Position numbers and translations under genes: made by a program. From Cochliopodium minus (Eukaryota; Discosea; Himatismenida; Cochliopodiidae), in the NCBI GenBank assembly GCA_024220525.1, contig JAMYWO010000056.1:168719-190115 (forward strand): 21,397 nucleotides of DNA. Direction: 5' to 3'. The stretch's first letter is position 1. The number at the start of each line of letters is the position of its first letter. This document shows positions 1 through 20,963 of this stretch, in pieces. The notes under the pieces are model-generated. The model was not told the DNA's origin and did not search any database. It was given only the letters and a program-made list of their open reading frames with translations.

Positions 1-156
1 AAAATTGTAAAAATTATTTTTAAATGATATAAAATAAAAATTTGATAAACAAATTAATTAAAAAATAATAAATAAAAAATAATGTAAAAAATAAAAAATA
101 AAAAACAAAAAAAACGAAAACAAAAAAATGAAAAATATAAAATAAAAAATAAATAC

Positions 157-2637
157 TTTTTCATTTGTCAAAATGATTGCAATGTCATCACTCATAATAG
201 TTTCATTGAAAGGAGAAAGCATGTATAAAGGAGACTTGGCACCTCTATTCCTGATGATGCCAAGCAAAATGAATTCTTCTTTCCATCTGAAAAATGACAA
301 CATGACATCGATGTACTTCATCCCTCTCCAGCGCAAGGCAAATTCTTGGAAATAAATATTGAAGGATGTACCCCTTGAGTAGTCATACTCCCACTTTGCC
401 GTCCTGGAAATTTTCGATTCTTCGAGAGGTCTCACCAAATTAGTTAAAACAGTCGACGTACCTAGAAATGTTGTTAGAAAAAATAATATTGAATTAATTT
501 AAAAATAATATTGAATTAATTTAAAAATAATATTGAATTAATTTAAAAATAAAAATAATGTTTCAAAAAATAAGTAAAAAAACATAAATAAAAAGAGTAT
601 TCCTACCAGGATGAATACAATTCTGAGCAAAAAAAGAAGAACGGAGCTCCTCAATACAAACAACACAATCAACGTGGATGTACTCCGGATTAGGCAGATT
701 CAAAATGGTCTTCTTCATATTCTCAGTCATGATCTGTATATAGATCCGAATATTTGGAGCATAATTTTTAATGGACCAATACTTTAAAATGTTCTTTGAA
801 TCCTCTTCTAATCTGTCGTCTATATCTTTATCTGCCAAGATGATAGCGTTGTCGTAGTTTTCGATTTGGAGGTTGATGAGAGTATTACGAGAGATGGGTG
901 AGCCTTGGATGTAGAAGATGTGCGAGTAGATGCTAGGGTTAGAGAGGATATTTTTTATATCTTGGGTCATTGGTTTGGAGTTCAAGATGCATACTTTAGG
1001 TGGTGGTGTCATTTCTTTAGAACTTTCAAATAAAAATAAATAATACTCTTAAAATATTACAAATTTAACACCTTTTTTTTATTTATTTTGAATTCAAAAT
1101 TTTTTAAAAAAGAAAATGTTTTTATATAATTAATAATATGCAAAAAATATTTCAAATTTATTCTACCTTTCAAAAAATAAACAATGCATTACACTGTTGA
1201 GACCGTTTGGTGTTATCGTACCAGTCAAAAGAATAGTTTTTCCGGAACCAAAATAAGAGATCTTTCTTCCATAAGTCTTTGGAACACTGTTCAAAAGCTC
1301 AATGAGCTTGCTCACTTCCAAAGGGATTATGATACTGTTAGTCAAAATAAAAAAGATGGCTGCTAATCTACCCAAAGTAGTTTTAGGGGCGATATCTCCA
1401 TATCCTAATTATTAAAAAGAAATTAATAAAATAAATTTTATTTTCTATTTTAAAAAATGTTGTTTGATAAAGTTATTGTTGTTTAATTTTTTTATTACCT
1501 ACAGTTGCCATCGTGACAACTGCGTAGTACACAAACTCAAAAAAGTTGAGTTGGTTAGTCACTCTGTTTTTGGGGCTTAGCCAAGGATCTCCATTTGTTT
1601 CAAATAAGTGTATAAACGCAGCGTAAGTGAACACAAGGTTCAATACTGCAAGAACAATCTCCGCCATCAACATGAAAACTCCTTTTCATTTTATAAAATA
1701 AAAAAAATAATGAAATAAAAATTTTTCAAGAAATAAATAAAAATAGTTTTAAATTAAAAAAGGAATACTGTAGTCAATTTTTTTGGTGAGAGAAGAAATC
1801 CACATCCCTTTTGTCCCTCCAAAAGTTGGCAACTTTGCTAAAAACCCCAAAAAAATCCACACACGAAGTGCACGAAAAAATCCTAATACCGCATATTTTC
1901 CCATGATCCTTTTTATTTATTCGGTTATTTAAATTAAAAAATTTAATATTATTTTACCATGAAATGAATACTGGGGTTATTGTGATAGTATCAATGATAG
2001 TATATGGGGTGAATATAAAATTAAATCTGAGAGATGAATTTAAATTAATATTATTTCTCTGAAATTAAAAAACAAGAAATTATACTTTCTTGGAGCAGAT
2101 AGGAATTTATATCCCCATGTTACACAAAACCATAATGCAATAGCCAAATCTGGCAAAAATTTGATAAAAGAGATACGAGTTTTGGGGCCACCAACTGAAT
2201 TTGCGACAAATATTCCCATATATACTAAACTTATTGCAAAGTTAAAGAATTCCTATTGATCATATTATTTGAAAATTTATTTATATTAAAGGTATTCAAT
2301 GAAGCATAATTTTACCAAGAATATCATGAAATTAGATTTCTGCGATTTGGTGGCTATCTTTCTGAAATCCCTCAACCACAATGGCTCATTGCTCACTATT
2401 CCATAGCCTATCTTTTTCTCCTTTGACTCAATTTTCTTTAGATAAATCCTCAAAATCCCAAAAACAGTGAGAATGACAGCAACCAAAGCTGCATTAATCA
2501 ATGCGACGATACAAATATCTTCGTATTATATTATATGGTTTTTTAGAAGATTTAAAGGAATATTGTTAAAACAATTGGTAAAGCGCTTTACCTATCACAT
2601 CTCCTTTAATAAGGTAAAAATCCAAAATTGTTCCCAT
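157..2637 (-). CDS. Slo/BK-type potassium channel A (3' part outside window)
   Basis: Exons read on the minus strand: 2637-2592, 2518-2316, 2252-2086, 2026-1958, 1908-1769, 1681-1499, 1404-1167, 1022-607 and 461-157, giving 589 in-frame codons. The next exon lies left of base 1; bases 1-156 read as intron. The start is the ATG at 2637, followed by a 15-codon first exon ending at a phase-1 intron shared with B. The protein has an S0-like segment (VALINAALVAVILTVFGIL), S1-S3, an S4 with two Arg (GFFRALRVW), S5 and a K+ filter ATVGYGD split by an intron inside the first Gly codon. The segment PKTTLGRL after the pore and the RCK1 motifs (IKNYAPNIRIYIQIM; CIEELRSSFFAQNCIHPG) match BK channels segment by segment. 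Compared with B and C it has an extra intron in RCK1 (1023-1166). RCK2 is not in the window. Membrane K+ channel subunit; family call is secure, gating ligand unknown. Confidence 0.9.
482..550. repeat. 22-bp direct tandem repeat, three copies, in an intron of channel A
   Basis: A 22-bp unit containing TTGAATTAATTTAAAAATAA recurs with exact 22-bp spacing (its TTG at about 489, 511 and 533). It lies within the intron 462-606, between the two exons that code for the middle and end of RCK1. The copies look identical, so the expansion is recent. Confidence 0.85.
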
Positions 2638-2780: not shown

Positions 2781-5700
2781 TTATTTATTCCTCTTCGATT
2801 CATTATCTTTTTCATCATCCATTTCATCATCATCGCCTACATAGCTATGAAAACCACCAATGATTTTGCTCTTCAAATTAGAAGCACCCAAAAGAGGATT
2901 GAAATCATAAGAATGCTCTTGAGAGTCATAGGTGTTCTCATCAATGACATGAGTAGGAATATTAGGGAAGTTCTCAGAACTAGTATCTTCAGAGAATCTA
3001 ACATTTTTCTCTTTTTTTTTCTCAAAATTAACAGTTTTGAAGCTGCGTGGAGTTGTGTCTACGGGCTTGGAAGCTAAAGAGATTTTGTAGAGCACCTCTT
3101 TGCCCACGAAGGCATAAATTTGATCTTCATCTCTAATGAGGGTGGTACTTTCGGGCATGCATACCACATAGTCATGAACAGCTTGATCTATGTCGAATTC
3201 TTTTGAGGGCTAATAACAAAAAATAAAAAATTTTATTATCAAAATTAATAATATGTAAAGAAAAAAATCAAGAAAAAATTTTTGATCAAAAAAGTAATGA
3301 CCTTTCTCAAAAGAGCAAAAGGAAGGATCTTTTTTTCAATACTTTGAACAATAATGTCATCAAAGGTTGAATTTCTAAAGTCATAATAAAGAAGATCCTT
3401 GGCTTCACCATTTTCATCATGGTTCTCGCAGTAAACAGGGATGAGAGCCAAATGGTTTCTCTGTGGATGAAAGTTCTCATTGGAAGATCCAAAAATTTTG
3501 ATGAGAGGAATGATTTGAGGAATGAAACAAGCCTGTGCAAGCATCATTTCAAAAATTGCACCAGAAAAAACTTTACCAGAAGCAAAGAAAGGAGTGATGA
3601 GACCATCCACTTTGTGCCCCTTGTTCTCTTTGACTTTTTCTTTCATGTATTTGAGGTGGGTGGCTATATCTACAAACAACATGTTCCCATCGTCCAAGAG
3701 TTCCATCACTAACGCGTTTCTTACCTCTTTTTTATAATAATCAGTGATTTCCTTTTCTACATTGAGAGATATGTACATCGCTTCACTATCTATATGACCC
3801 CCTTCATTCTCCTGTGGAGTGGGGTTAGAGAATATGACAACCTTTGATGTTTTTTCAATATTGATCGTTCTAAGATCATCTCTATTTAATCCACTAATTT
3901 TTTTTTAGATGAATCAACGTCACAAATAATAATAAATTTTTGTTATACCTCCCACTGTAATAATAAATATCAGGGAACTTGGAAAGTTTTTTCCTTCTCT
4001 TTTCCACATAAAAATCATGTTCGCTGCTATTGATAGGTTTGAGATACTCGGGATCTAGAATCAAGATCTTTTTGTACCAATTGGTATTGGTAAGATAATT
4101 GAGCCTGAGAGCAGCAATGAACCAGAAAATTTTGTTCAGCCTTCCACAAACAACAATATGATCAGTTAAAAGCGCATTCGCTTGTTTCTTGGTAGTTATT
4201 GTATAAGGCCATCCTAAATAAATAAAAAAAATATATGAACAACATTAAATTAAAATTTGGAAAAATAAAAACCGTTGAAATTTTCCCAATTTTCTTTTCC
4301 CTTTCTTTTTTTTATTTCCTCTTCTTTGTTGACTGTTGTATATTGGTAAAAAGAAGTTGATCCCATGAAAACACTCCTTGGACCCACATCCATTGGTTCA
4401 ATTTCTTGTTCTTCAACTAATTTTGTCTTGTTAGTCAACAAATATTTCTTTTTCTTCTTTTTGTCGTGCTTTTTCTTTTTTTTGGTGAGACTTTGGAGTT
4501 CAAAATCGAGGTCTTTATCATCTAATTTCTCCAATTTTTTTCTAAGTTTATTTTCCAACTTTGTTGTCTCCTTATATTTAGTCTTTAATACTCTAGCTTC
4601 ATTGTGATACTTGTCAAAAAGATATTTATCTATTAAAAAATTTAAATGTTTTTAAACGTTATTTAAAAAAAAATATAAAATAATTTTAGGTTACCTTTTG
4701 ACAAAGGAAACCTCCCATCTTCAAAAAAGTTTTTTGGTATGTTTAGTTCAGAAGCAAACAACTCTTTAGGATCAGTACTTACTTTCAAAGACTCGTTCAA
4801 CTCATCAGTCAAAATAATAGCAATGTCTCCTTTTTCAATAGTGAAATCAAAAGGAGCTAAATGTATTTGGTAGATGCCATTTTGTTTCCTCATCATTCCC
4901 AGAATTAAAATATTAGGTTTCCATTTGTAGAAAGAGAGAACCAACTGTCTAAAATTCATAAAATTTTGACTCCAATGCTTGGCAAATGGTTGAAAATAAA
5001 TGTTAAATACAACTCCACGTGTGTATTCATATTCCCATCTACATTTTCTCGACAAAATACCTTGTTCTTTTGCTCTGAGCATATTTGTTACCAGAGTGGA
5101 CAAACCTAAAGAAATGGTTTATTTTTATTCTTAAAAAAACTGTTGAAATTTTTTTTACCAGGATATATACAATTTTGAGCGAAAAAAAGAGAACGAATTT
5201 CTTCAACACAAACAATGTTATCACCAGTCACATACCTGTTTGGCAAATTTAAAAGAGTTTTCTTCATATTATCTGTCAATATCTCGATGTATATTGTGAC
5301 ATTGATGCAGTAATTTTTAATGGATAAGTATTTGAGAATGTTTTTTGAGTCCTCTTCCTCTTTTTTAACTGCATTTTTATCGGCCAAAATGATAACATAC
5401 TTGTAATTTTCTACATGAAGATCCAACAGAGTCTTTCTTGACATTGGCGAACCTACTAGAAAATAAATATGAGGAGCAAAGACTGGATGAGACAAAATCT
5501 CAGTTATTTCGGGAGTAAGCGGAGAAGGGTTAAGAATAGTGACTTTGGGCGGATTGGTAGATGTTTGCATATTTTCAAAAAACAAAGAATCTAAAACAGT
5601 TTGTAAAGAAACAGGCTGAATTGAACCTGTAACCAGAATAGTTTTCCTAGAACCATTGGGACTAATGAAGTAACCATAAGTTTTTGGAAGTGCAGTAATC

Positions 5701-6936
5701 AGTCCATAGAGGTTGTTGACTCTCAAAGGAATTACAACGATTGATGTCAAAATGTAAATTATATCCGTCAATCTTCCTAAGGTAGTTTTGGGCGCTAAAT
5801 CACCATATCTTTATTTTTTTGAAGAAGAATTGTTTAAATTTAAACTATATGTACATTTTAAAATTAGTTACCCTAATGTTGTTGCTGTAACGATTCCCAG
5901 ATACACAAATTCAAAAAAGTTTAGCTGTTGTGTAACTCTGGTATCAAATGGCTCCCATGGATCACCGTTTCTTTCGAAAAGGATCATCAAACCAGCAAAT
6001 GTGAACAAAAGATTGATAATCATGTAAACAAAATCAGACCAAATCAAAAAGATTTCTTTGAATGGAGATTATTATGAAGTTTTGAAAATAATATTTGAAA
6101 AGAATATTTTACTTATATCAATGAATTGTGCGAATTTGAGTAATTTTGAATTTTTATTCAAGGTAGGCAATCTGGAGTATAATTGATTCATAAAGTACAA
6201 GAAAATCCATATTCTCAACGCTCTAAAGAATCCCAATACTGCATACTTTCTCAATCCCCTTCAAAATGATTATTTTTCTTTTCTTTAAATAAATTTAATT
6301 TACCATGAGATGAATACAGGTGAAATTGTTATCAAATCTATGATAGTATACAACGAAAAGATGAATGAATATCTAAAAATAATATCATTATTATTGATTT
6401 TCTTTTTAAAATTTAGGTGATTTTATTACTTATTTGGCGCAGCGAACAATTTGAACAACCAAACAAACAAAAAATAGAATGCCATTATCAAATCAGGCAA
6501 GAATCTTTGGAATTCAATCACCGATTTTCTAGATCCAGTTGTATTTAAGATATATATGCCCATATAAGCTAAACTCATGAATAAATTCAAAAATTCCTTA
6601 AAATGTTCATTAATATAAGAAAAATTTTATGAGAATTCTTTACCAATGATATCATAAAATTAGATTTATATGCTTTATGGGAAATATTTCTTGCAATAAT
6701 TATCCATTTGTGTTCAAATTTTTGAATGTTTTGATTTATATTCTTTTTCATTGATTTGAGCTTATGATATCTCACAAATCTGATAATTTGGAATACACTA
6801 AAGAATAGAATGATGCACAATAAATTGATTGCTGCGACTATTCCAAAGTCTTTGTTTGAACAAATAATTAATAATTTACTTATATTTCAATTTAGTTACC
6901 AACAACATCTCCATTAATCATTGGTCTAATAACCAT
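2781..6936 (-). CDS. Slo/BK-type potassium channel B (complete)
   Basis: Exons: 6936-6900, 6849-6644, 6596-6430, 6372-6304, 6258-6113, 6055-5872, 5808-5159, 5105-4695, 4629-4273, 4213-3949, 3893-3302 and 3209-2781, summing to 1171 codons with TAA. All junctions keep frame; one donor is atypical (GTCATT at 3301). The order is S0 (residues about 13-35), S1-S3, S4 (GFFRALRIWIF), S5, filter TTLGYGD, S6, and RCK1 ending FAQNCIYPG. A Lys-rich linker follows, then RCK2 (DHIVVCGRL ... LRTINIEKTSKVVIF ... TPFFASGKVFSGAIF) and an acidic tail. These blocks align with animal BK, e.g. LRAVNIN and TQPFACGTAFAVS. Predicted role: tetrameric plasma-membrane K+ channel with a cytosolic gating ring. The BK calcium-bowl aspartates are absent. 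It is the only intact channel here, so it is the reference for A, C and D. Its start codon is 24 bp from the LRR gene's. Confidence 0.93.
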
Positions 6937-6960: not shown

Positions 6961-9351
6961 ATGAAAGAGAAACAAATAGAATCAATTATGGAAAAGAATT
7001 TGGAAACTTTGAGAATAGAAATGATCAATATAAACTCTTTTGAAGAAAATACAATGGCTTTAAAAAAATATAGGAAAAAATATCACAGAGAATTGGTAAC
7101 CTATATTTCTGCACAAACCATCCAATCAATCTTCAAATCGAAAAATCTCAAAACATTGATCATAGTAAGAAAATGTTCCATAATAATAAAAATATAAAAT
7201 TTTATTCTGTTGAAGAGAAATTATAGAAATATAAATGCAAGAATGATTGATTGGAAAAGATTTGAAATGAGATTAGAACATTTAGATCTGAGCTATTGTT
7301 CCATCGGGGATTCTTTTCTAATGCAACTGAGTTTGTCAAAGTCTAGACTTACTTTGAGGACGCTGAAACTCAGAGAGGCTGGGATAAGCGAATATGGGGC
7401 ATCTTTCTTAGGGAGTTTTTCAAACTTGGAAAGTCTTGATTTGAGAAAAGTGAAACTGAAATCGTTTCCTGAATGTATAGGAGATTTAAAGAACTTAAAA
7501 GAATTAAGAATAGATAAGATGGTAAATACTGGTAAAAATAAAAACTATTAAGAATATTAAAATGCTAAATTTATTGAAAAAAATTTCATATTTTAAAGAT
7601 CGATCGAGGATTCTTGAAGAGAGACTTGAAAAAGTGTGCTGCATTTCTGGGTTATTCAAATACAAGGTGAATCCAGAAATGAAAGAATTTTCAATGCTGG
7701 ATCTCCATCACTACTCTCCCATGAACGGATACACCACACTCGAAAAAATAAAGTTAAACCTTTATGAACAAAATTGCCATTTAGGAAGTCTAGAGAAACT
7801 CAAATACTTAAAATTAAATTCTTCATTTCTTTCGATGGCTCCCTTTAATATTTGCAAAAATCTTGAAACTCTGATTTTGCCATATGTTAAATACATTAGT
7901 GCGTTAAAATCGGATGTTGTCGAAAATATCAAAGAATTTTCTCATTGCTGTTTCTATCAAAATGACCTCAGCGAATATAATGAAGAGCAAAGAATAAACA
8001 TATTAAAATTCAAGAGTTTAAAACACTATTCTGGAAGTCTGGTAACTAGTTCTCCCCTCCAACTAGAATTTCCAAGAACAGACGACATTCCCTTTAGAAA
8101 CATTGAAACGCTAAAACTGCCGTACCTTCCAGAATACATTGAATATTTTTTTAATTCAAAGATGCCTGATTACTTCCCAAAACTTGAAACCTTTGTTTCT
8201 TACACTGACATTCATGAAAATGTTCTAGATGTTTCCCTTGTAATGTTTCCTACAACGTTAACTGCACTGAGGCTCGGTAGTAGCAAAATCCCCTTTCCTA
8301 AACTCAATTTTCTGGGAAATTTGACAAACTTGAAGCTCCTAAAGTTAGATATTGCTCCTTTTTTAGAAGATGAGGTAAATATTTAAATTTTAATTCATTT
8401 TTTTTGATGTTTTTTTTTTTTAGAAATTTTATGATCCTCTCTCCAATCTTATAAACCTTCATGCTTTATCATTACACACGCCTATTTCAAGAAATCAAGA
8501 AAAAACAGTGGATTATTGTAACATTTTCAGTAATCTTAACAGTCTTGGGTATCTTGATCTTTCTGGTCATTTTGAGTTTAAACAATCAATTGTAGACTCA
8601 ATCTCAAAAATCAAGTATTTGAGCGTACTCAATTTGGACTTTTGTGATCAAATCACTGATATATCCCCTCTTTCCAACTTGCAGTTTTTAACAGATTTAA
8701 GTGCTAAGAACTTGAAAAATTTGAAGAAAATTTTTAACAAAGTAAAATCTCAAATATTTTTTCAAATTTTTAATTTTTCCATTAAAATAAAGAATTCTTC
8801 TTTAATTTCATACAAAATGACGGGTCCTTTTTCATGTCTTTTGGAAGCTGATCAACTGGATTTTCCTTCTCTTGTTACTCTCGAAGTTGAAGATGACAAT
8901 GAGTTCACAACAGAATTTTTTGAGGCTATTTTGAAGTTTCCATTCATCCACAACCTAAAATTGATTAGTAAAAAAATTTTATTTTTAAATTTATTTTCGA
9001 GAAAGAAATCTCTTTTTTTTTTTTTAAACAAAAAAAGATTGTAACATCAAAATTGATTGGATACACAAAATTAACAGATCAAATGTCAATAATCTTTGGC
9101 TTGAGAATTGTCAAAACATCAAAGAGTATCAAGTGAGGCAAAACATGATCCTTTCGGAGGAGACAGAGAACAACATCTTAAAAGAGCTTTTGTCCAAGAA
9201 AAGAGGAAACTATGGATTCTCTTTCTCTCCTTCCTTGAAGGAGTTTCACCTCTATATTGATAAATACCGAGAATATGCTGAACAGTGCTTGAACTACTAT
9301 TTTCCAAAGTTATACAAGGATGTATTACTATTTTTAATATTTAATTTTTAA
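6961..9351 (+). CDS. Leucine-rich-repeat protein (3' end uncertain at gap)
   Basis: Exons 6961-7164, 7216-7531, 7599-8374, 8424-8741, 8793-8967 and 9038-9351 keep frame through five GT-AG introns and give about 700 residues. Repeats follow the LxxLxLxxN/C pattern, e.g. LEHLDLSYCSIG, LRTLKLREAGIS, LESLDLRKVKLKSFPECIG, LGYLDLSGHFEF and LSVLNLDFC. No signal peptide, kinase or TIR domain is visible. The N-terminal 68 residues are basic and non-repeat. LRR solenoids usually bind protein partners; the partner is unknown. The exon 2 donor was set at 7531 because the earlier GT at 7522 breaks frame. The last codons (VLLFLIFNF) lead straight into a (TTTTTAA)n tract and an N, so the true 3' end may be a lost exon joined at a GTATTA donor near 9321. 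Confidence 0.75.
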
Positions 9352-9415
9352 TTTTTAATTTTTAATTTTTAATTTTTAATTTTTAATTTTTAATTTTTAA
9401 TTTTTAATTTTTAAT
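9339..9415. repeat. (TTTTTAA)n microsatellite abutting an assembly gap
   Basis: About ten uninterrupted copies of the 7-bp unit TTTTTAA run directly up to the N at 9416. The perfect repeat next to an unknown base is the pattern left when an assembler stops in a low-complexity tract. Confidence 0.9.
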
Positions 9416-9416
9416 N
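9416..9416. other. Single N: likely scaffold join of unknown length
   Basis: One ambiguous base separates the microsatellite from sequence that is a copy of 19990 onward. The LRR gene on the left and the amidotransferase 5' fragment on the right both stop here, which argues for missing sequence rather than one unread base. Confidence 0.75.
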
Positions 9417-9483
9417 TGATTTCATTTGCATCAAAGATGGCCAATCTAAATTTACCAGATGATCCCTTCACAATATTTTTCAT
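9417..9483 (-). CDS. Copy of the 5' end of the class I glutamine amidotransferase gene (fragment)
   Basis: This fragment starts at the ATG at 9483 and codes for the first 22 residues (MKNIVKGSSGKFRLAIFDAN, then Glu-Ile). It is identical base for base to 19990-20056, the 5' end of the amidotransferase gene. Upstream of the start the two loci stay similar for about 20 bases of poly-T and ATTTCA, then diverge completely, so this is not the same locus read twice with intact flanks. It ends at the N at 9416. It could be a recent paralog whose body is in the gap, a truncated duplicate, or an assembly artefact. Confidence 0.6.
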
Positions 9484-9559
9484 TTTTTTTTTTTTATTTT
9501 TTATTTCATCGATGGATTAAAAAGATAAAAATTATAATTCAACAATTAACTTTAATGGT

Positions 9560-11175: not shown

Positions 11176-13043
11176 ATGAAAGGTTTGTCAATACCAATAA
11201 TTTTTCTTTTTTTATATTGTATATCATCAAATCAAGCCAATGCTTATTATACTTGGCATCAACCTATAATTTTTGGAGAAATAAATACAACAATACCCCT
11301 CATAACAAAGAGAATAAAGAATATTTCAGTATATCAAAGTGGACAAGCAAATATAACACTAAATGGAAATATCAATTCAACATCAAATACCAGTGTGGCT
11401 ATATGTGTATCATATGGCACATATCCTTCGAACCATACAGATTTCGAGAATGATTGCATAAAGAATAATGGAGAATATATTGAATTAGAATTATCTGTTC
11501 TATCTGTCATTAATCTAAGAGAAAACATCTACCTTGAAAGTTTTCTGACTATTTCTATTATTAATATCACAGATACATCTTCTTTCAAAAATATGGAGTT
11601 ATTATTGAGTGGAATTGAATGTGAAGATGAAAATCAAGTATATTTCAATGAAGAATGCTTTTTGGTTTTCCCTGCAAGCAAAGATACATTCACAGAGGCG
11701 ATAGTGAAATCTGAAGAATGGAGCTTCTTGTCAATATTCGTGCCATCCTTTGTAGATTATACCATGACAACATTGAGTGTTCAATCTGTTGGAATATCAA
11801 TTGATACCAAAATAGATTCGAATCCATTGAATTTATTTGTGAGATATGGAGGTAAAAATCTTTTTCTATTATTCGAAATTTCTAAGTATCAAATTTGAGA
11901 CTTATTTATATCAGATGAGTAGAATGGATTTAAATCATGGTATTACTTTATAATTGAAACACAATATAATATCGTTATAATAGTATTCAAATGATTTTGG
12001 AGATTCTTATTTAGAAGAAATTCATTTTTTGTTTTAATTTTTTGGTTTTTGGTTTTTAGCTTCTAAAAAAAAAAATTTCTTGTTTTGAGATGTTCAATAA
12101 CTGTTGTTAATTAAAAGTTAATAACCACTAACAAAGTTGTAAATTTTTTAGACATGTCTAAAAAATTTCATAAATAGATTTTAATTGATAAAATTGATCA
12201 AAGTTCAATCCAAATTTTCTAATTTAAAACTTTTTATTTAGCTGCTCCTACAAACGAATATTTTGATTCGCAAGGTTATTCAGTGACAAATCACAGCTTT
12301 GATTTAAAATCCATAATGAACATCTCAAGTACAGGAAATTTCATCATAGGACTGCATAACACAGGTAACAGCACAGTGAAAACTTATGTAACTTTAGACT
12401 ACTCTGTGTGCACAGTAGACCAAGCAGGACCTCATTGCAATGACTCTGTCACTGTTGTGAGTAATCATAGCTTTGTAGAGGGCGTTCTCATGGACCCTTC
12501 GACTTGGAACTACTTCATTGTGGAAAATGTCAACGATCTTGCTTTTTACGTCATTTCTTCTAGTGAGGACGAAACTCCTGCGGCATATGCAAGAATAATA
12601 AGTTTGAAACTTTTTATTTTCTTTGTTTTTTATGATTTTTTTTTAATTCAGATTTTCCGTCAGACACAGAGTACGACATTTCTGCTGGCGGAGAAAAAAT
12701 CAACATTCTAAGCACGGAACATCTAAACGTTACTCATTCCGTTTATTTATTTTTCAAGCGAAGCTATTTTACGAACAGCACTAGAGATTGGTATGTCTCC
12801 CTCTACAATGGTAACCCAAATGTCATCTCTTATGGTTACTGGATAAGTAATGATTGTCCTGGCGGTTGTAATGGGCATGGCACTTGTATGAACCACACTT
12901 GCATTTGTAGGGATGATTATGGAGGTTTGGATTGTTTGGATCTTGTCAAATTACATCCCTATTTCATCATTTTGATTGTGGTTGTTTCTGTCATGTTGAT
13001 ATGTGCTATCTTGTGGCTTCTTGTCCTTTTCGTTAGGAATTAA
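11176..13043 (+). CDS. Secretory EGF-domain, single-pass membrane protein
   Basis: Exons 11176-11851, 12242-12601 and 12652-13043 join in frame to 475 residues. The N-terminus is a clear signal peptide (MKGLSIPIIFLFLYCISSNQ, then ANA). The following ectodomain of about 390 residues has many N-x-S/T sites and scattered Cys but no domain I can name. Near residues 413-439 is one EGF-like module (DCPGGCNGHGTC, then CICRDDYGGLDC) with six conserved Cys and the Gly-rich spacing of that family. A hydrophobic span of about 27 residues (HPYFIILIVVVSVMLICAIL onward) comes next, leaving a cytosolic tail of only three residues (VRN). It is probably a glycosylated cell-surface adhesion or recognition protein; ligand unknown. 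With so short a tail, signalling would need a partner. Intron 1 is unusually long (390 nt). Confidence 0.85.
12141..12168. repeat. 28-bp perfect palindrome inside intron 1 of the EGF gene
   Basis: The sequence is its own reverse complement around the centre GACATGTC, with arms AAATTTTTTA and TAAAAAATTT. It sits in a 390-nt intron in a genome where most introns are under 100 nt. It could form a cruciform or RNA hairpin, or be a two-fold protein site. Confidence 0.85.
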
Positions 13044-13279: not shown

Positions 13280-16200
13280 ATTTCTATCTCATTCAAAGAT
13301 GTAGTAGGTAAAATAATTCAACAATTTTATTTTTTATTATATCGCCCATTTCCTTTAAAGATTATTTGATTGTGGGCCTTATTAATGTCTTGATTATATT
13401 CATTTCCTCCATTCTTTTTATCATTTTGAGAATGATAAAGGCAAGAAGAAAGATGAACCCCAAATCTCTATTCCTTGTTCGATTCAAGGATTTGTGCATT
13501 AGGGTGAACAAATCAAACAGCATGATATTATTTGTAAAAATATTTTAATAATTTACAAATTATAGTGGATAAAAATTTGCATCCAATCAAAATTTTTAGT
13601 TAACCCTTTGATAATCAATAGATTATATATATTTATTTAATTTTTATTGTTAATTTTGAAGGAAACAATAAATTTTATATTGGGAATTGCATTCATGGCA
13701 ATGTACATTGTGAATACCACAGGATATCCCAAATCAAGAATAGGATTTTATAGATTTCTCCCTGATATACTAATGGCATTCTATTTCTTGATAATGTGGT
13801 TGTTTAAATTGTTTGCATCGGCCAGAAAGTAAGAAAATGCTCTTTTAAATAAATTGATCAAATTAACCAATAAAATTGAATAGATTATCATTCATCTTTT
13901 CATTTTATTCGATGATCGATCTGATAACAATTTTGCCAGTCTTCATCTCATGGTGAGATTCAATTTTTTTTTGATAAGATCATTTGACATTTTTGTTGAA
14001 ATAGGCAAACAGGACATTACGCTGATTTGGGATTTTTTAGGCCTTTGAGAGTGTGGATATACTTGAAATTTTTGCACTCACTTCCTACGTATGCAGGGAA
14101 CTTCAAAAAAGACTCTTATTTCATAAAAAAAACAAAAAATTTGGATTTGAGTAATTTAATCTTTATTTTTTATTTAAAACTTTTAATTAAAAAAAAAATT
14201 TGAAGAAAAAGTTTTGGAGTGGGCAGAGTTTGTTTACTTGGTCTTCAACTTGATTTTCACATTTGCAGGGTTGACATTCTTGTTTGAATCAAACGGGGAT
14301 CCTTGGTTGAATGAAAAAACAAGGACAAAACAAGAACTGAATTTCTTCTTGTTCATTTACTATTCTATTTCGACAATGTCCTCAGTTGGTAACAAACTTT
14401 CTTACTTAACAATTGAAAAATAATTTTAAGAAATAATTTAAAGGTTATGGTGATGTAGTTCCTAAAACATCACTTGGCAGACTGACTTGTGTTATCCTGG
14501 TTTTTATATCAATTTTAATGATCCCCTTAAAAATATCAAAGCTTAACGAATTCTTGAGAGCACAACCCAAATATTTGGGCACTCCAGTGAGAAGTTTTGG
14601 ATCAAGGAAAAACATTTTAGTAACAGGGTCCGTGAAACCATCTACCTTGGAAAATGTTTTATCTTCTCTATTTTATGAGAGTAATCTGACATCTAGATTA
14701 CCTCCTAAAGTAACTATATTGGACATTACCCCCATTTGTAACGAAATCAGAAGAATTATGGCGAATCCTCAATATATATCGAATACTTTCTATTTTGTGG
14801 GATCACCCATGAATAAGAAGACTCTGATTCATCTTTCAGTGCATAATTTTGATAATGTCATCATTTTGGCTGATAAAACTTCTCCGAACAAAATTGGCGA
14901 GGATACCAAGAACGTAATGAAATACTGGGCCATCAAGAATTACGCCATCCATTTGCGCATTTATATCGAAATCTTGACGGAAATTATGAAAAAGACCATT
15001 ATGAACCTTCCTAACCCCCAGTACATTTCACAAGACAACATCATTTGTATCGAAGAACTTAGATCGTACTTTTTTGCACAAAATTGCATATTTCCTGGTA
15101 AATTTCTTTATAAAATTCAATTTTATATTGTCAATTTAAGCATTAATAATAAAAAACAGGTATGTCTTCTCTAATCACTAACATGATTAAATCCCAAAAC
15201 CCTACCGTCCTTTCAAGAAAAAATAGATGGGAGTACGACTACTCAAGGGGAGTCATCTTCAACATCTACTTCCAACCTTTGGCATCTCACTGGAGTGAGG
15301 TGGGGATCACCTTCAAAGACCTTGCTTCTAAATTTTACAAATGGAAAGATAATTTAATGATAATTGGGTTGGTCAGGAAAAGAGTTTTCGATAAAAATTT
15401 GGTCTCACAAATTTACATTAGTCCCTTAGATTTCACCATCCAAGAGAACGATGTCGCAATCGTTTTGACTGATGATTTCAACGTTTCTATGATTGTTACT
15501 CGTGAACCTCCTGAACTCAATGAAAGCGAAGCTCATATACCCAAAGATTTTTTTGGAGAAAAGTACTTTCTACCAGAAGGTTTCTTATTTTTATTTTTTC
15601 TCATTTTTATTTTTGTTGTTTCATTCAAATAAAACAATATTTTTTTTTTTTTTGTTAACAAATAAACTTTCTTTTAAAAGATGCGATAAACAAGACAAAA
15701 AACACAAAAAAAGTTAAAGAAATCAAACATCAACTAGAAAGACTGAAAAAATTGAAGGGAGACATCTACCACAAGCTCAAAAAGCTCAACACAAACCAAG
15801 AAGTTCTCATAGACTTGAATTACTCAAGCGAAGAAGAAAACATCATACCCAAAATGAGAAATAGGAAAATCAGCCAAAAATATGATTCGAGTGTTTTCCG
15901 ACACCAAGCCAAATTCACTAAAAGTTATAAAATTTCTTCCACAGAGTTTGTTGTGGCCAAAGATAGTGAAATAAGCCTTGACAACAATGGAATTCCTTTT
16001 CAATCTTTCACTGGTTTCTTCATCTTTTATTCATTTTTATTTCAGTGGAAAGTAAAAATTTTTTAGTTTTTCGATTTTTTATTTTTTATTTATTTATTAT
16101 TTATTATTCTATTATTAATTTTATTATTTATTATTTATTATTAATTTTTATTTTTTATTTTTTATTTTTTATTTTTTATTTTTTATTTTTTATTCTTTGC

Positions 16201-17421
16201 AGGCCTAATTTTTTTTTTTTTAATTAAAAACATGTTTTTTTATTATTATTTCATTTAAAGTGGTCGTTATAGAGAAGACTTAAGGGCAGTGAACATACAC
16301 AAAGCCTCCAAAATTGTGATTTTTTCAGTTCCTACCACCAACGATAAGGATAAAGAAGATATTCTGATAGATGCTGATACAATGTACATATCCTTAAACA
16401 TAGAAAAGGAAACCACCAAATTTAAAAAAGATCCAAACAATGCTTTGGTCATGGTAAATTTATTAAAATAAAATCAATTTAAAATTTTAAATTTATTGAA
16501 ATATTTTTTTTTAAAATTTTTTTAGGAATTGTCTAACGATGAAAATATGTTATTCATAGATCTCGCAACCCATTTAAAGTTCATAAAGGAGAAAACTGAG
16601 GAGAAGGACAAAAGCAAACATTTAAAAGTGGATGGTTTGATGACTCCTTTCTTTGCTTCTGGCAAAGTTTTTTCAAGCACAATTTTTGAAATTGGTGAAA
16701 GATTTTTCTTGATTATTTATTTTATTAATTTTAATACATTTATTAATATTTTTTTTTTTTAATTTTGATAGTTATTGCACAAGCATCATTTTTTCCTGAA
16801 ATTATTCCCCTCATCAAAATTTTGTCATCATCCAGACAGCGAGAACACCCACAAAATTACCAACTTGCCCTTTTGCCCTCTAGGTTCGAAAATTTGGATA
16901 TTGTTGAGCAAAGTGAAGAACAGGAGGAAATTTATTATGATTTCAGAGGTTATTCCTTCAATGAAGTTGTATTGATCTGCATGTCCAAGAAAATTCTTCC
17001 TTTTGGATTGTTCAGAAAAGTAAAAAAATTAAATAAAATAAAAAATATAATTGTTTAAATTTGTTAACTCGATTTTTTTTTTAAGCCTTCAAAAGAATTC
17101 GATATTGATAATGCTGTTCATGATTATATCATTTGCATGCCAGAAGGTTCTACTGTTGTCAGAGATAAAGATCAAATTTATGCTTTTGTAGAAAAAGGAT
17201 TGTTTTCTAAACTCTCAAAATATGAGAACAAAGATGGAAATTTTCATATTCCCCACAAAAAAAAAGCGACAGACAGCACACCTAAAGTATTCCACAAGAG
17301 AACTTCTAGAAACATTTCGAGAAACAAACTTGATCTATCTAGAAGTGACTCTGATTTTGAAAATGAAGATGATATTCCTCTCAAAGAAATACAAAGTTTA
17401 ATGAATGAAAAAGATTTTTGA
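13280..17421 (+). CDS. Slo/BK-type potassium channel C, lacking one RCK2 exon (broken or misassembled)
   Basis: Exons 13280-13307, 13361-13533, 13662-13828, 13884-13952, 14005-14150, 14206-14388, 14444-15097, 15160-15579, 15681-16013, then 16261-16453, 16526-16694, 16772-17019 and 17086-17421 (TGA). S0-S6, filter SSVGYGD, RCK1 (GSRKNILVTGSV ... FAQNCIFPG), a coiled Lys/Glu linker, and the second half of RCK2 (REDLRAVNIHKASKIVIF) are clear. The exon that in B and D codes for GWP...VVCG... to the FPD strand (265 nt, phase 1 in, phase 2 out) is absent. In its place is an A/T microsatellite (about 16075-16195). Joining exon 9 to exon 10 directly shifts frame and stops within eight codons. The start is also unresolved: the first exon needs a phase-0 upstream partner, but the ATG at 13210 gives phase 2. 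Either a pseudogene or a collapsed assembly. Confidence 0.85.
16075..16195. repeat. A/T microsatellite block including (ATTTTTT)n in channel C
   Basis: TTTATTATT-type repeats grade into about seven copies of ATTTTTT ending near 16193. The block fills the space where paralogs carry the first RCK2 exon. A short GC-containing residue (GCAGGCCT around 16199-16206) right after it might be an exon remnant, but is too short to prove it. Confidence 0.85.
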
Positions 17422-17462: not shown

Positions 17463-19458
17463 TCAAATGTCATCCTTATCATTCTTGTCATCACCAAAAT
17501 AAAATTCATCTTCGAATTCGTCGTTCTCATCAATGAAAATGTGCTCACTTTCTCTTTCCATTTCTCTTTTGGGAGATTTTTTATCGAGAAGTTGGTTACA
17601 AACGGTCACTTTTTCAAGGACGTCTTTGCTTACAAGAGCATAGATCTGATCATCTTCTCGAATGACTGTGGTTCCCTCAGGGACTGTAACAACATATTCA
17701 TGGGTAGCTTTATCAACATCAAATTCTCTTGAAGGCTATCAAAAAAAAAAAAAAAATTACGAAAAAGAAATAAAAACCAAAAAAATCACTAAAATATTTT
17801 TAAAAAATTTATTTTTTTTGATATCATCTTACCATTCTTAATATTCCAATTGGCAAAATGTTCTTTTCAACAGATTGATAAACCACTTGTTTGTACTCCA
17901 ACTTTCTGAAGTCATAAAATGTATGTTCTCCGTCACTTTTAGTATGGGTACAACAAGAAGGAATAAGAAATAAAAACGAAGAATCTTCAGATTTGGTACC
18001 TAACAAAGTTTGTTTTTTTATTTTTTTTTTTTTGATAATTTTATTTTATTTACCAGGGACAGAAAGCAAATGTCTCATTGTAGGGATTATTTCGGGGTTG
18101 AAAGAAGATTGGGCCACCATAAGATCGAAAATGGCTGCCGAAAATACTTTACCAGACGCGAAATAAGGTGTCATCAAACTATATAAAATTAAAAATTAAA
18201 GATAAACTAAAAATTTGAATATTTTTATTTTGAATTTACCCATCTACTTCGATAATATGGTTGTCTTCATATCCCTCATCTTTTTTTTAAAAAAGTTTTA
18301 TAAAATTATAAGGTTTTTAAAATTATTTTTCTTACTCAGCCTTTTCATCTGCGATTGCACGTCCATGAACAACATATTTTCGTCTTGCGAGAGTTCCTAC
18401 AGAAAAAAATGAAAAGACACAAAAAAATTGTTTTTTTTTACCATTACTAATTGAGTATCAGAGTCTGTTTCTTTGACCACATTGAGAGACACGAATAAAG
18501 ATTCAGTATCCAGCAAGTTTCTTTCAAAGAGAATGGAATTTTTCATGTTGGTGGAGTTGTTGGGGAAGACTACGACCTTGTTAGAATGTTTCACGTTGAC
18601 TGCTTTCAAATCTTCAGTGAATAAAGCACTGTTTGTTTTAAATAAAAATTGTGAAAATATTTAAAAAAAATACTAAAATATTTAAATAAAAAGTAAATAA
18701 TTTTTTTTTACCTTCCACAAAAGTAAAATACATCAGGAAATTTTTCTAATTTTTTGGTTCTTCTGTTAACCACAACATCGTGTTTTGGATCACCAGTGAG
18801 TTTCAAGTAATCAGGGTCCAAGATGACGATCTTTTTGTACCACTTGGTTTCTTTGAGATATTTCAGCCTAAGGGAGGCTATGAACCAGAAAATCTTGGAT
18901 ATTTTGCCACAAACAATGATGTGATCATCAAGAATTTTTTTTGATTGTTTCTTATTTTTTAAAGTGAATGGCCATCCTAAAAATATAAATTTATTATTTG
19001 CAAAATTAAATTAATTTTTTATTTTTTTGCTAAACGTTTTATTTTAATATATTTTTATTTTTACCTTTAAAATCTTCCCAATATTTTTCCTTTCTTTTCT
19101 TCAAAATCTCTTTGAAGTTATCCACAATGATATAATCTTTCTTGTTTATTTTAGAAGAGATTCTCCTGTTCATATTCCCGAAAACTCGACTTTTTTCTAC
19201 AGATTCATTCATCTCGCTTGACAAGTCGATCATTTGATTTTTTATTGAAAGAAGAGGAATGTTTTGATCTTCCTTTTTCCACTTTGAAGTGAAATCTTTT
19301 TTTGATCAAATTTTTAATTATTAAAATTATTGATTTGGTGATTAAATAATTATTTTTTTTTTAAAAGAAGATAAATTACCTTCAAAAAAATCGTTTGGAA
19401 TGTCATTAATTGTTAGCGCTAGTTCTTTTGGCTCAGTGCTAAGAAAGAAAGATTTATT
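17463..19458 (-). CDS. Slo/BK-type potassium channel D (C-terminal part; 5' part lost at gap)
   Basis: Exons 19458-19380, 19295-19065, 18976-18712, 18628-18442, 18396-18336, 18279-18240, 18178-18054, 17999-17833 and 17735-17463 give 475 residues ending in TGA. It begins in the last RCK1 segment (STEPKELALTINDIPNDFF). It then has the linker, a full RCK2 (DHIIVCGKISKIFWFIASLR ... LKAVNVKHSNKVVVF ... TPYFASGKVFSAAIF) and the terminal PSREFDVDKATHEYVV block with an acidic tail. S0-S6 and most of RCK1 should lie to the right but are replaced by a (AAAAAT)n tract and an N. Compared with B it has more introns in RCK2, including one 40-nt micro-exon. Tail-to-tail with channel C: 41 bases between stop codons. 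Likely functional if the missing 5' part exists. Confidence 0.88.
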
Positions 19459-19500
19459 CTAGAAAGAAAAAAAAAATGATAATTTTTCGTGATAATTTTT

Positions 19501-19574
19501 AAAAATAAAAATAAAAATAAAAATAAAAATAAAAATAAAAATAAAAATAAAAATAAAAATAAAAATAAAAATAA
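19501..19574. repeat. (AAAAAT)n microsatellite abutting an assembly gap
   Basis: About twelve perfect copies of the 6-bp unit AAAAAT end at the N at 19575. The tract starts just upstream of the first recognisable exon of channel D. Confidence 0.9.
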
Positions 19575-19575
19575 N
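19575..19575. other. Single N: likely scaffold join of unknown length
   Basis: Channel D lacks its 5' two-thirds on the left of this base, and the amidotransferase gene lacks its 3' half on the right. Both facts require missing DNA, so the N marks a gap rather than one ambiguous call. Confidence 0.8.
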
Positions 19576-19598
19576 AATTTTGGATTTTAAGTAATTAC

Positions 19599-20056
19599 CC
19601 TTTATTGCTTTTCTCCACACTTCCTGGATTCAATGAATATGAAATCAATTGATGTCCAAAACATACTCCTATCATTCTTTGCGAACCCAATTTCTCATTG
19701 TTATAAACAGTCTTTATGATATCTGATAAATTTACAATCCATTCATCTTTATCATAAGCAGAAAAAGGGGATCCTAAATTCATTATAGTTTAAAATATGT
19801 TAATATAACAGTTATTGAATAATTTTTTACCAGATATCAAAAACCCATCGAAATCATCCAATGATGATGGAAATTTATTTTGAAATACTTTAAAATCAGT
19901 GAATTCTAGATTATTATCAACTTTGCTGAAGCTATCTTTGAACAATCTGAAAGCATCAAAATTATATTTCTTTTTCAATTCAAGATTTCTGATTTCATTT
20001 GCATCAAAGATGGCCAATCTAAATTTACCAGATGATCCCTTCACAATATTTTTCAT
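19599..20056 (-). CDS. Class I glutamine amidotransferase domain protein (3' part lost at gap)
   Basis: Exons 20056-19831 and 19773-19599 code for 133 residues, and a donor GTAATT follows at 19598. The sequence FRLAIFDAN, then DDFDGFLISGSPFSAYDKDEW, then the nucleophile elbow RMIGVCFGHQLIS is diagnostic of stand-alone class I GATases of the GMP-synthase-like group. The Cys in GVCFGHQ is the predicted catalytic nucleophile that releases ammonia from glutamine. The His-Glu pair that completes the triad would lie about 80-100 residues downstream, beyond the N at 19575. A cytosolic enzyme is likely, as there is no signal peptide. The acceptor substrate cannot be read from this part. Its first 67 bases recur at 9417-9483. 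Confidence 0.85.
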
Positions 20057-20378
20057 TTTTTTTTTTATATTTTATTTCAAAAGATCAAAAATTTAGAAAT
20101 TGAATCATTCCAATTCGGTCATCATTTCTAAAGTGATCTTTTTAGTTATAAAGAATTTCATATTACTATGATATTCAAGAGACTTTGAGGACAGTGTAAA
20201 CAAACAATAGAGATGTCAATATGTATGCAATTTTCTATCAGTTAAATTTATTATTATATGATACATAATTCCAAGATACAAAATGAAATCTCTCCAATAA
20301 ATCGATGTTTGATTTTTAATTAATATCTGGTATAATTGTTAATCAATGTATTTTAGTTATTAAATGTATAAAAATAAT
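20057..20378. other. Intergenic region between the amidotransferase gene and tRNA-Met
   Basis: About 320 bases, AT-rich, without an open frame of note on either strand. It must hold the promoter of the minus-strand amidotransferase gene (start 20056) and the 5' flank of the tRNA. A poly-T tract lies directly upstream of the amidotransferase ATG. No specific motif is recognised. Confidence 0.6.
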
Positions 20379-20451
20379 GTCTACGTGGTGTAGTTGGCAG
20401 CACATGAGTCTCATAATCTCAGGGTCACGGGTTCGATTCCCGTCGTGGACT
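20379..20451 (+). tRNA. tRNA-Met (CAT), elongator type
   Basis: A full cloverleaf folds by eye. The acceptor stem GTCTACG pairs with CGTGGAC with one G-T pair. The D arm holds AGTTGG. The anticodon stem-loop TGAGT-CTCATAA-TCTCA has anticodon CAT at 20412-20414 and the T-T mismatch at the loop base seen in many eukaryotic elongator tRNA-Met. The T arm is ACGGG-TTCGATT-CCCGT. No intron; the final CCA is not encoded. Confidence 0.95.
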
Positions 20452-20890: not shown

Positions 20891-20963
20891 TGCTCCGGGA
20901 GGGGATCGAACCCTCGATCTTTGCATTATAACTACAACGCTTTACCAACTAAGCTACAGGAGC
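20891..20963 (-). tRNA. tRNA-Ile (TAT)
   Basis: On the minus strand the acceptor stem GCTCCTG pairs with CCGGAGC except one T-C mismatch. The D arm contains AGTTGG. The anticodon stem-loop TTGTA-GTTATAA-TGCAA has anticodon TAT, reading AUA. The T arm is GAGGG-TTCGATC-CCCTC. Discriminator is A. There is no intron. A tRNA for AUA suits a genome whose codons are heavily A/T-biased. Confidence 0.92.

Follow-up and report, generated by a model that had tools for sequence, protein, structure and literature searches.

The closest described systems for the channels analyzed here are BK, i.e., Slo1 (KCNMA1), Slo3 (KCNU1), and Slo2.2 or Slack (KCNT1). Passages of PMC10342799 state that Slo2 channels lack S0, whereas Slo1 and Slo3 possess it, and that human Slo3 has a far lower Ca2+ sensitivity than Slo1 without being insensitive. 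For human BK, D367, the main chain of R514, and E535 are given as RCK1 ligands, and E374 and E399 as Mg2+ residues, in the cited part of PMC4319557. In Slack RCK2, D818 and H823 belong to the Na+ site according to sections of PMC3850776, which also report unchanged Na+ or Cl− sensitivity after mutation of the bowl-like region in Slack and Slick. One paper uses absence of the calcium bowl to distinguish Slo3 from Slo1, and a second one cautions that sequence is a difficult basis for predicting RCK ligands. From protists, Prole and Marrion (2012) described protozoan KCa1 homologs similar to the KCa1.1 RCK domains (PMC3283738); we liken them to the present channels by description, not by sequence, and the main text of that paper uses neither "calcium bowl" nor "Ca2+ bowl". 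In sections of PMC6974456, a T. cruzi K+ channel is described as having no calcium bowls, yet its activation is likened to that of SK and IK channels. Apart from this channel, we found no statement on a bowl in protist Slo channels among the matches listed from the open-licence literature.

The window, i.e., the whole 21,397-nucleotide stretch of Cochliopodium minus DNA analyzed here, is AT-rich (26.0–32.4% GC in 2-kb steps) and has abundant short GT-AG introns, which marks it as evidently eukaryotic. It contains four genes for Slo-type K+ channels, of which B is complete and A, C, and D are partial:

151 to 2637, minus strand: gene A, from S0 to most of RCK1; the end of the last exon was set by hand at 151
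2781 to 6936, minus strand: gene B, a full Slo-type K+ channel of 1170 amino acids with 12 exons and 11 GT-AG introns; its only stop is the final one
5872 to 6849, minus strand: gene B exons 2–6, S0 to pore, including S4 with R210 and R213 equivalents, as read from hydropathy and S4 alignment
5159 to 5808, minus strand: gene B exon 7, end of the filter, S6, and start of RCK1, with FFENMQTSTNPPKVTILN as the stretch corresponding to D367
4695 to 5105, minus strand: gene B exon 8, remaining RCK1, with K as R514 equivalent and N as E535 equivalent
3302 to 3893, minus strand: gene B exon 11, RCK2 including the bowl position (NMLFVD...VDGLITPFFASGKVF), without the Asp run
13360 to 16013, plus strand: gene C, first part, reaching from S0 through RCK1 into the linker, with a tentative start-codon exon
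16261 to 17421, plus strand: gene C, second part, with the bowl exon at 16526–16694 and the C-lobe
17463 to 19458, minus strand: gene D, reduced to linker, RCK2, and tail, front half missing (Slo-like_RCK, 3.9e-17)
18336–18396, 18240–18279, and 18054–18178, minus strand: bowl exons of gene D in our gene model

Gene B features a K+ pore of the six-transmembrane type with GYGD, followed by tandem Slo-like RCK domains, as seen from Pfam and sequence. Its Pfam matches were Slo-like_RCK (3e-37, in two stretches), BK_channel_a (1.2e-17), Ion_trans_2 (4.4e-10), and also Ion_trans; Slo-like_RCK was found in all three models scanned (B, first part of C, and D) and BK_channel_a in B and C. The filter TTLGYGD of B is split across exons and finished in exon 7. 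Since the frame and all 11 introns are intact, the gene B protein is probably made. Every one of the 38 introns in the models (11 in B, 8 in A, 8 in D, and 11 in C) reads GT...AG, with intron ends picked to fit GT/AG, and one of the 11 in C is a 247-base stretch with a missing exon. At this place (16014–16260), which includes a T-rich tandem repeat (16058–16198), the counterpart of the B exon 3949–4213 (RCK2 start) is absent between the two parts of C, and the phase does not match across; either the assembly is collapsed or the gene is broken. RCK2 of gene A is expected past the window start, outside the stretch analyzed. In RCK1, A and C are 53.8% and 54.7% identical to B, and the RCK domains overall share 49–60% identity with B between the paralogs. 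The C-terminal tails are rich in Asp/Glu, with 9 of the last 30 residues in B (2781–2873), 10 of 30 in C (17329–17421), and 14 of 30 in D (17463–17555).

One N base occurs at 9416 and another at 19575, the former bordering 7-base and the latter 6-base tandem repeats (regions 9330–9547 and 19500–20115), and 9417–9547 is 87% identical to 19990–20115 at the start of an amidotransferase-like gene. These sites look like assembly joins, and the missing front of D may be one outcome. The amidotransferase-like gene (19599–20056, minus strand) contains GVCFGHQLI, from which we presume a resemblance to class I glutamine amidotransferases; a Pfam scan of its first exon alone gave no match. Between B and the repeat join lie exons of a leucine-rich repeat gene (6961–9351, plus strand), with LRR_8 above the cut-off in 7198–7551. 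On visual inspection, a further gene (11176–13043, plus strand) begins with a signal-like stretch and ends in a hydrophobic helix, and EGF-type Pfam matches at 12636–13043 stayed below the cut-off. Two tRNA genes, tRNA-Met (CAT, 20379–20451, plus strand) and tRNA-Ile (TAT, 20891–20963, minus strand), are also present.

In hydropathy profiles, hydrophobic peaks numbered seven each for A and B and, above threshold, six for C. All three contained the extra N-terminal, S0-like peak expected for Slo1, and hence by hydropathy did not show the Slo2 pattern of six transmembrane segments without S0. In S4, the arginines R213 and R210 are present in all three channels, R207 is replaced by G in each, and the D153 column reads A, I, and L in A, B, and C. 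Because of these replacements at R207 and D153 voltage sensing may differ from that of BK, which we count against our preferred explanation below. Among the best 60 of 82 PDB matches, gene B as a whole matched BK best (167 bits; human BK, 4.6e-48; best stretch S1–RCK1), with Slack at 98 bits. For RCK2 of gene B alone, human Slo3 came out on top (41 bits), followed by zebrafish BK (36 bits), and no Slack chain was among all 29 PDB matches at E ≤ 10. From S1 to S6, A, B, and C share 33.1–35.4% identity with human BK. Their RCK1 domains are 22.7–26.3% identical to those of BK, Slo3, and Slack and thus, being alike to all, cannot place the channels; as plain identities rather than a tree, the values are 22.7–24.8% to Slo3 and 23.0–25.7% to BK, against 51.0% between BK and Slo3. 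RCK1 of gene B itself is equally distant from that of BK (23.0%), Slo3 (24.8%), and Slack (23.2%), a further point against our preferred explanation.

In viral contigs, the RCK1 and RCK2 alignments returned 287 and 42 pattern stretches, and in bacterial and archaeal genome contigs 214 and 144, none of which was confirmed as a relative; the searches spanned viral, bacterial, and archaeal collections and are uninformative on protists. Structure prediction yielded no usable model, with mean pLDDT values of 36.1 for the RCK1 exon of B aligned with that of C (two sequences) and 32.1 for the RCK2 exon of B alone.

The bowl exon of gene B (3302–3893, minus strand) encodes ELLDDGNMLFVDIATHLKYMKEKVKENKGHKVDGLITPFFASGKVF. 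Against zebrafish BK (PDB 3u6n), the alignment of gene B RCK2 ran through ELVNDSNVQFLD and resumed at the FA-G-F stretch past the bowl; in between, BK QDDDDDPDTELY had no counterpart in gene B IATHLKYMKEKVKENKGHKVDG, and the DDDDD run of BK remained unmatched. The flanks likewise aligned and the Asp run stayed unmatched when BK, Slo3, Slack, B, C, and D were compared in two MAFFT modes. The ligand residues D895 and D897 are found in none of B, C, and D, and the pattern F-[LIVMF]-[DE]-x2-[DE]-x-[DE] matched the BK control and had no match in B, the second part of C, or D. This bears out the earlier note, which had read the flanks as kept in B and the Asp run as absent in all three channels and had named restoration of the bowl Asp residues by an alignment as the outcome that would speak against it. 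Its C stretch (16526–16694) is exactly one exon, and its D stretch (18054–18396) encloses the three bowl exons. An Asp at the place of D892, a main-chain ligand, is retained in all three (FVD, FID, and FMD in B, C, and D), where D892 was identified by counting from D894–D897 as numbered in a passage of PMC4319557.

With loops bounded by hand, the net charge at the bowl position is −7 in BK, −2 in Slo3, +3 in Slack, +3 in B, +2 in C, and −3 in D. The middle had been described as basic, which applies to B and C and fails for D with its net acidic loop. Among B, C, and D, 8 of 12 columns are invariant in the N-terminal flank and 23 of 36 in the C-terminal flank, compared with 2 of 21 in the middle, so the variation is in the middle of a conserved frame. 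N449, which we take to be the bowl ligand contributed by the adjacent subunit, is N in A, B, and C and also in Slo3; its retention counts against our preferred explanation.

In RCK1, no acidic residue occupies the D367 or E535 position in A, B, or C. Depending on the alignment, the D367 column reads S/N/S, K/Q/L, or S/M/N (in the order A/B/C), non-acidic in each of three alignments, and E535, located in BK VSNEMYT by numbering along the chain, corresponds to N in all three channels. The R514 column is L/K/Q and the M513 column P/A/S. Neither Mg2+ residue is kept in any of the three, with F/Y/F at E399 and C/T/T or K/K/K, depending on the alignment, at E374; N172, the Mg2+ residue of the voltage sensor, is P/P/A. 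A Glu common to A, B, and C lies one to three places ahead of the D367 column (FFES, FFEN, FYES) and counts against our preferred explanation. Since RCK1 of gene B is no closer to any one of BK, Slo3, and Slack than to the others, these site calls rest on weak alignments in which the D367 column shifts between runs. The earlier note had concluded that the RCK1 calcium site was absent, and this conclusion stands; its pointer was aimed at a neighboring Asp pair, since the pair closest to VEIVFLH in BK is D369/D370 and the literature ligand is D367. The comparison supports absence of the known Slo1 calcium sites from every paralog where they are readable, i.e., the bowl in B, C, and D and the RCK1 site in A, B, and C; each site was read in three of the four genes, with RCK2 of A and RCK1 of D outside the window.

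Overall, the channels resemble Slo1 in S0, the S4 residues R210 and R213, the GYGD filter, the tandem RCK domains, and the top whole-protein match, but are unlike it in having no bowl Asp ligands, D367, E535, E374, or E399. With Slo3 they share the missing bowl, non-acidic residues at D367 and E535 (both K in human Slo3, which has no bowl in our alignment), and the top RCK2 match, whereas in RCK1 Slo3 is far closer to BK than to B. Slack likewise has no bowl and features a long basic loop with the net charge of B, followed by FAAGRVFS against FASGKVFS in B. In contrast, the residue at position 535 is still E in Slack, and RCK2 of B gave no Slack match at E ≤ 10. LDP follows the second strand in B and D, and the alignments disagree on its match to Slack LDNKPDHH.

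The missing Slo1 calcium residues are real but largely ordinary within the Slo family. Absence of the bowl is not special in itself, because human Slo3 and Slack are also without it. Nor does it alone prove Ca2+ insensitivity, since human Slo3 is described as far less sensitive rather than insensitive (passages of PMC10342799), a residual sensitivity that we also count against our preferred explanation. Because Slo2 and Slo3 have no bowl either, its absence in Cochliopodium may be the starting state rather than a loss.

We consider it rather probable that these genes encode divergent protist Slo-family K+ channels with Slo1-like topology that would combine voltage sensing with a gating ring whose ligand would differ from Ca2+ bound at the Slo1 sites. 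An S0-like helix, the R210/R213 arginines, the GYGD filter, and tandem RCK domains, complete in B, are present. Four subunits would form the pore and the gating ring, S4 might confer some voltage sensitivity through R210 and R213, and the ring would open the pore upon binding the intracellular ligand. That the ring probably senses another ligand, as the earlier note had it, is a reasonable, if putative, reading, for which Slo2 (Na+) and Slo3 (pH) are the nearest precedents and offer candidates by analogy. A bolder version, in which a protist Slo branch carries tandem paralogs with differently charged loops (+3, +2, −3) that assemble into mixed gating rings with a ligand new to Slo channels, appears very doubtful to us.

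Gene B might still be gated by Ca2+ through a non-Slo1 site or calmodulin, which we regard as unlikely. The Ca2+ sites of MthK differ from those of BK. MthK is an RCK channel activated by Ca2+ (as stated in part of PMC6957272). The T. cruzi channel without calcium bowls is reported to be Ca2+-activated and to have predicted calmodulin sites, but it is described as IK/SK-like in its activation (both in sections of PMC6974456). The weak Ca2+ sensitivity of human Slo3 (passages of PMC10342799) points in the same direction, as do the acidic C-terminal tails of B, C, and D, which weigh against our preferred explanation, and the Glu near the D367 column common to A, B, and C. However, an EF-hand-like pattern, used without a positive control, had no match in B, D, or the second part of C, and no Ca-binding domain was among the Pfam matches of B, the first part of C, and D.

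That the gating ring is structural only and voltage alone opens the pore seems quite improbable. The Slo1 divalent-cation residues examined in RCK1 and RCK2 are gone and R210 and R213 of S4 are retained, which speaks for this reading, but the conservation of the RCK domains between paralogs, and that of the bowl flanks relative to the middle, suggests a working ring. The view that the absence is an artifact, due to misassembly or an incorrect gene model, would draw on the two N bases adjoining tandem repeats, on the first D exon found near one of them, and on the exon missing from C. Against this, the bowl stretch lies within a single open-frame exon in B and in C, and the three paralogs agree; in D the stretch spans three exons. 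We give an artifact hardly any weight.

A missing bowl by itself is already known from Slo2 and Slo3. If S0 and tandem RCK domains occur here without the Slo1 calcium sites, however, this would bear on whether the bowl was gained along the Slo1 line or lost elsewhere. The Cochliopodium channels also offer natural variants from which the role of a Slo gating ring without Slo1 ligands may be learned.
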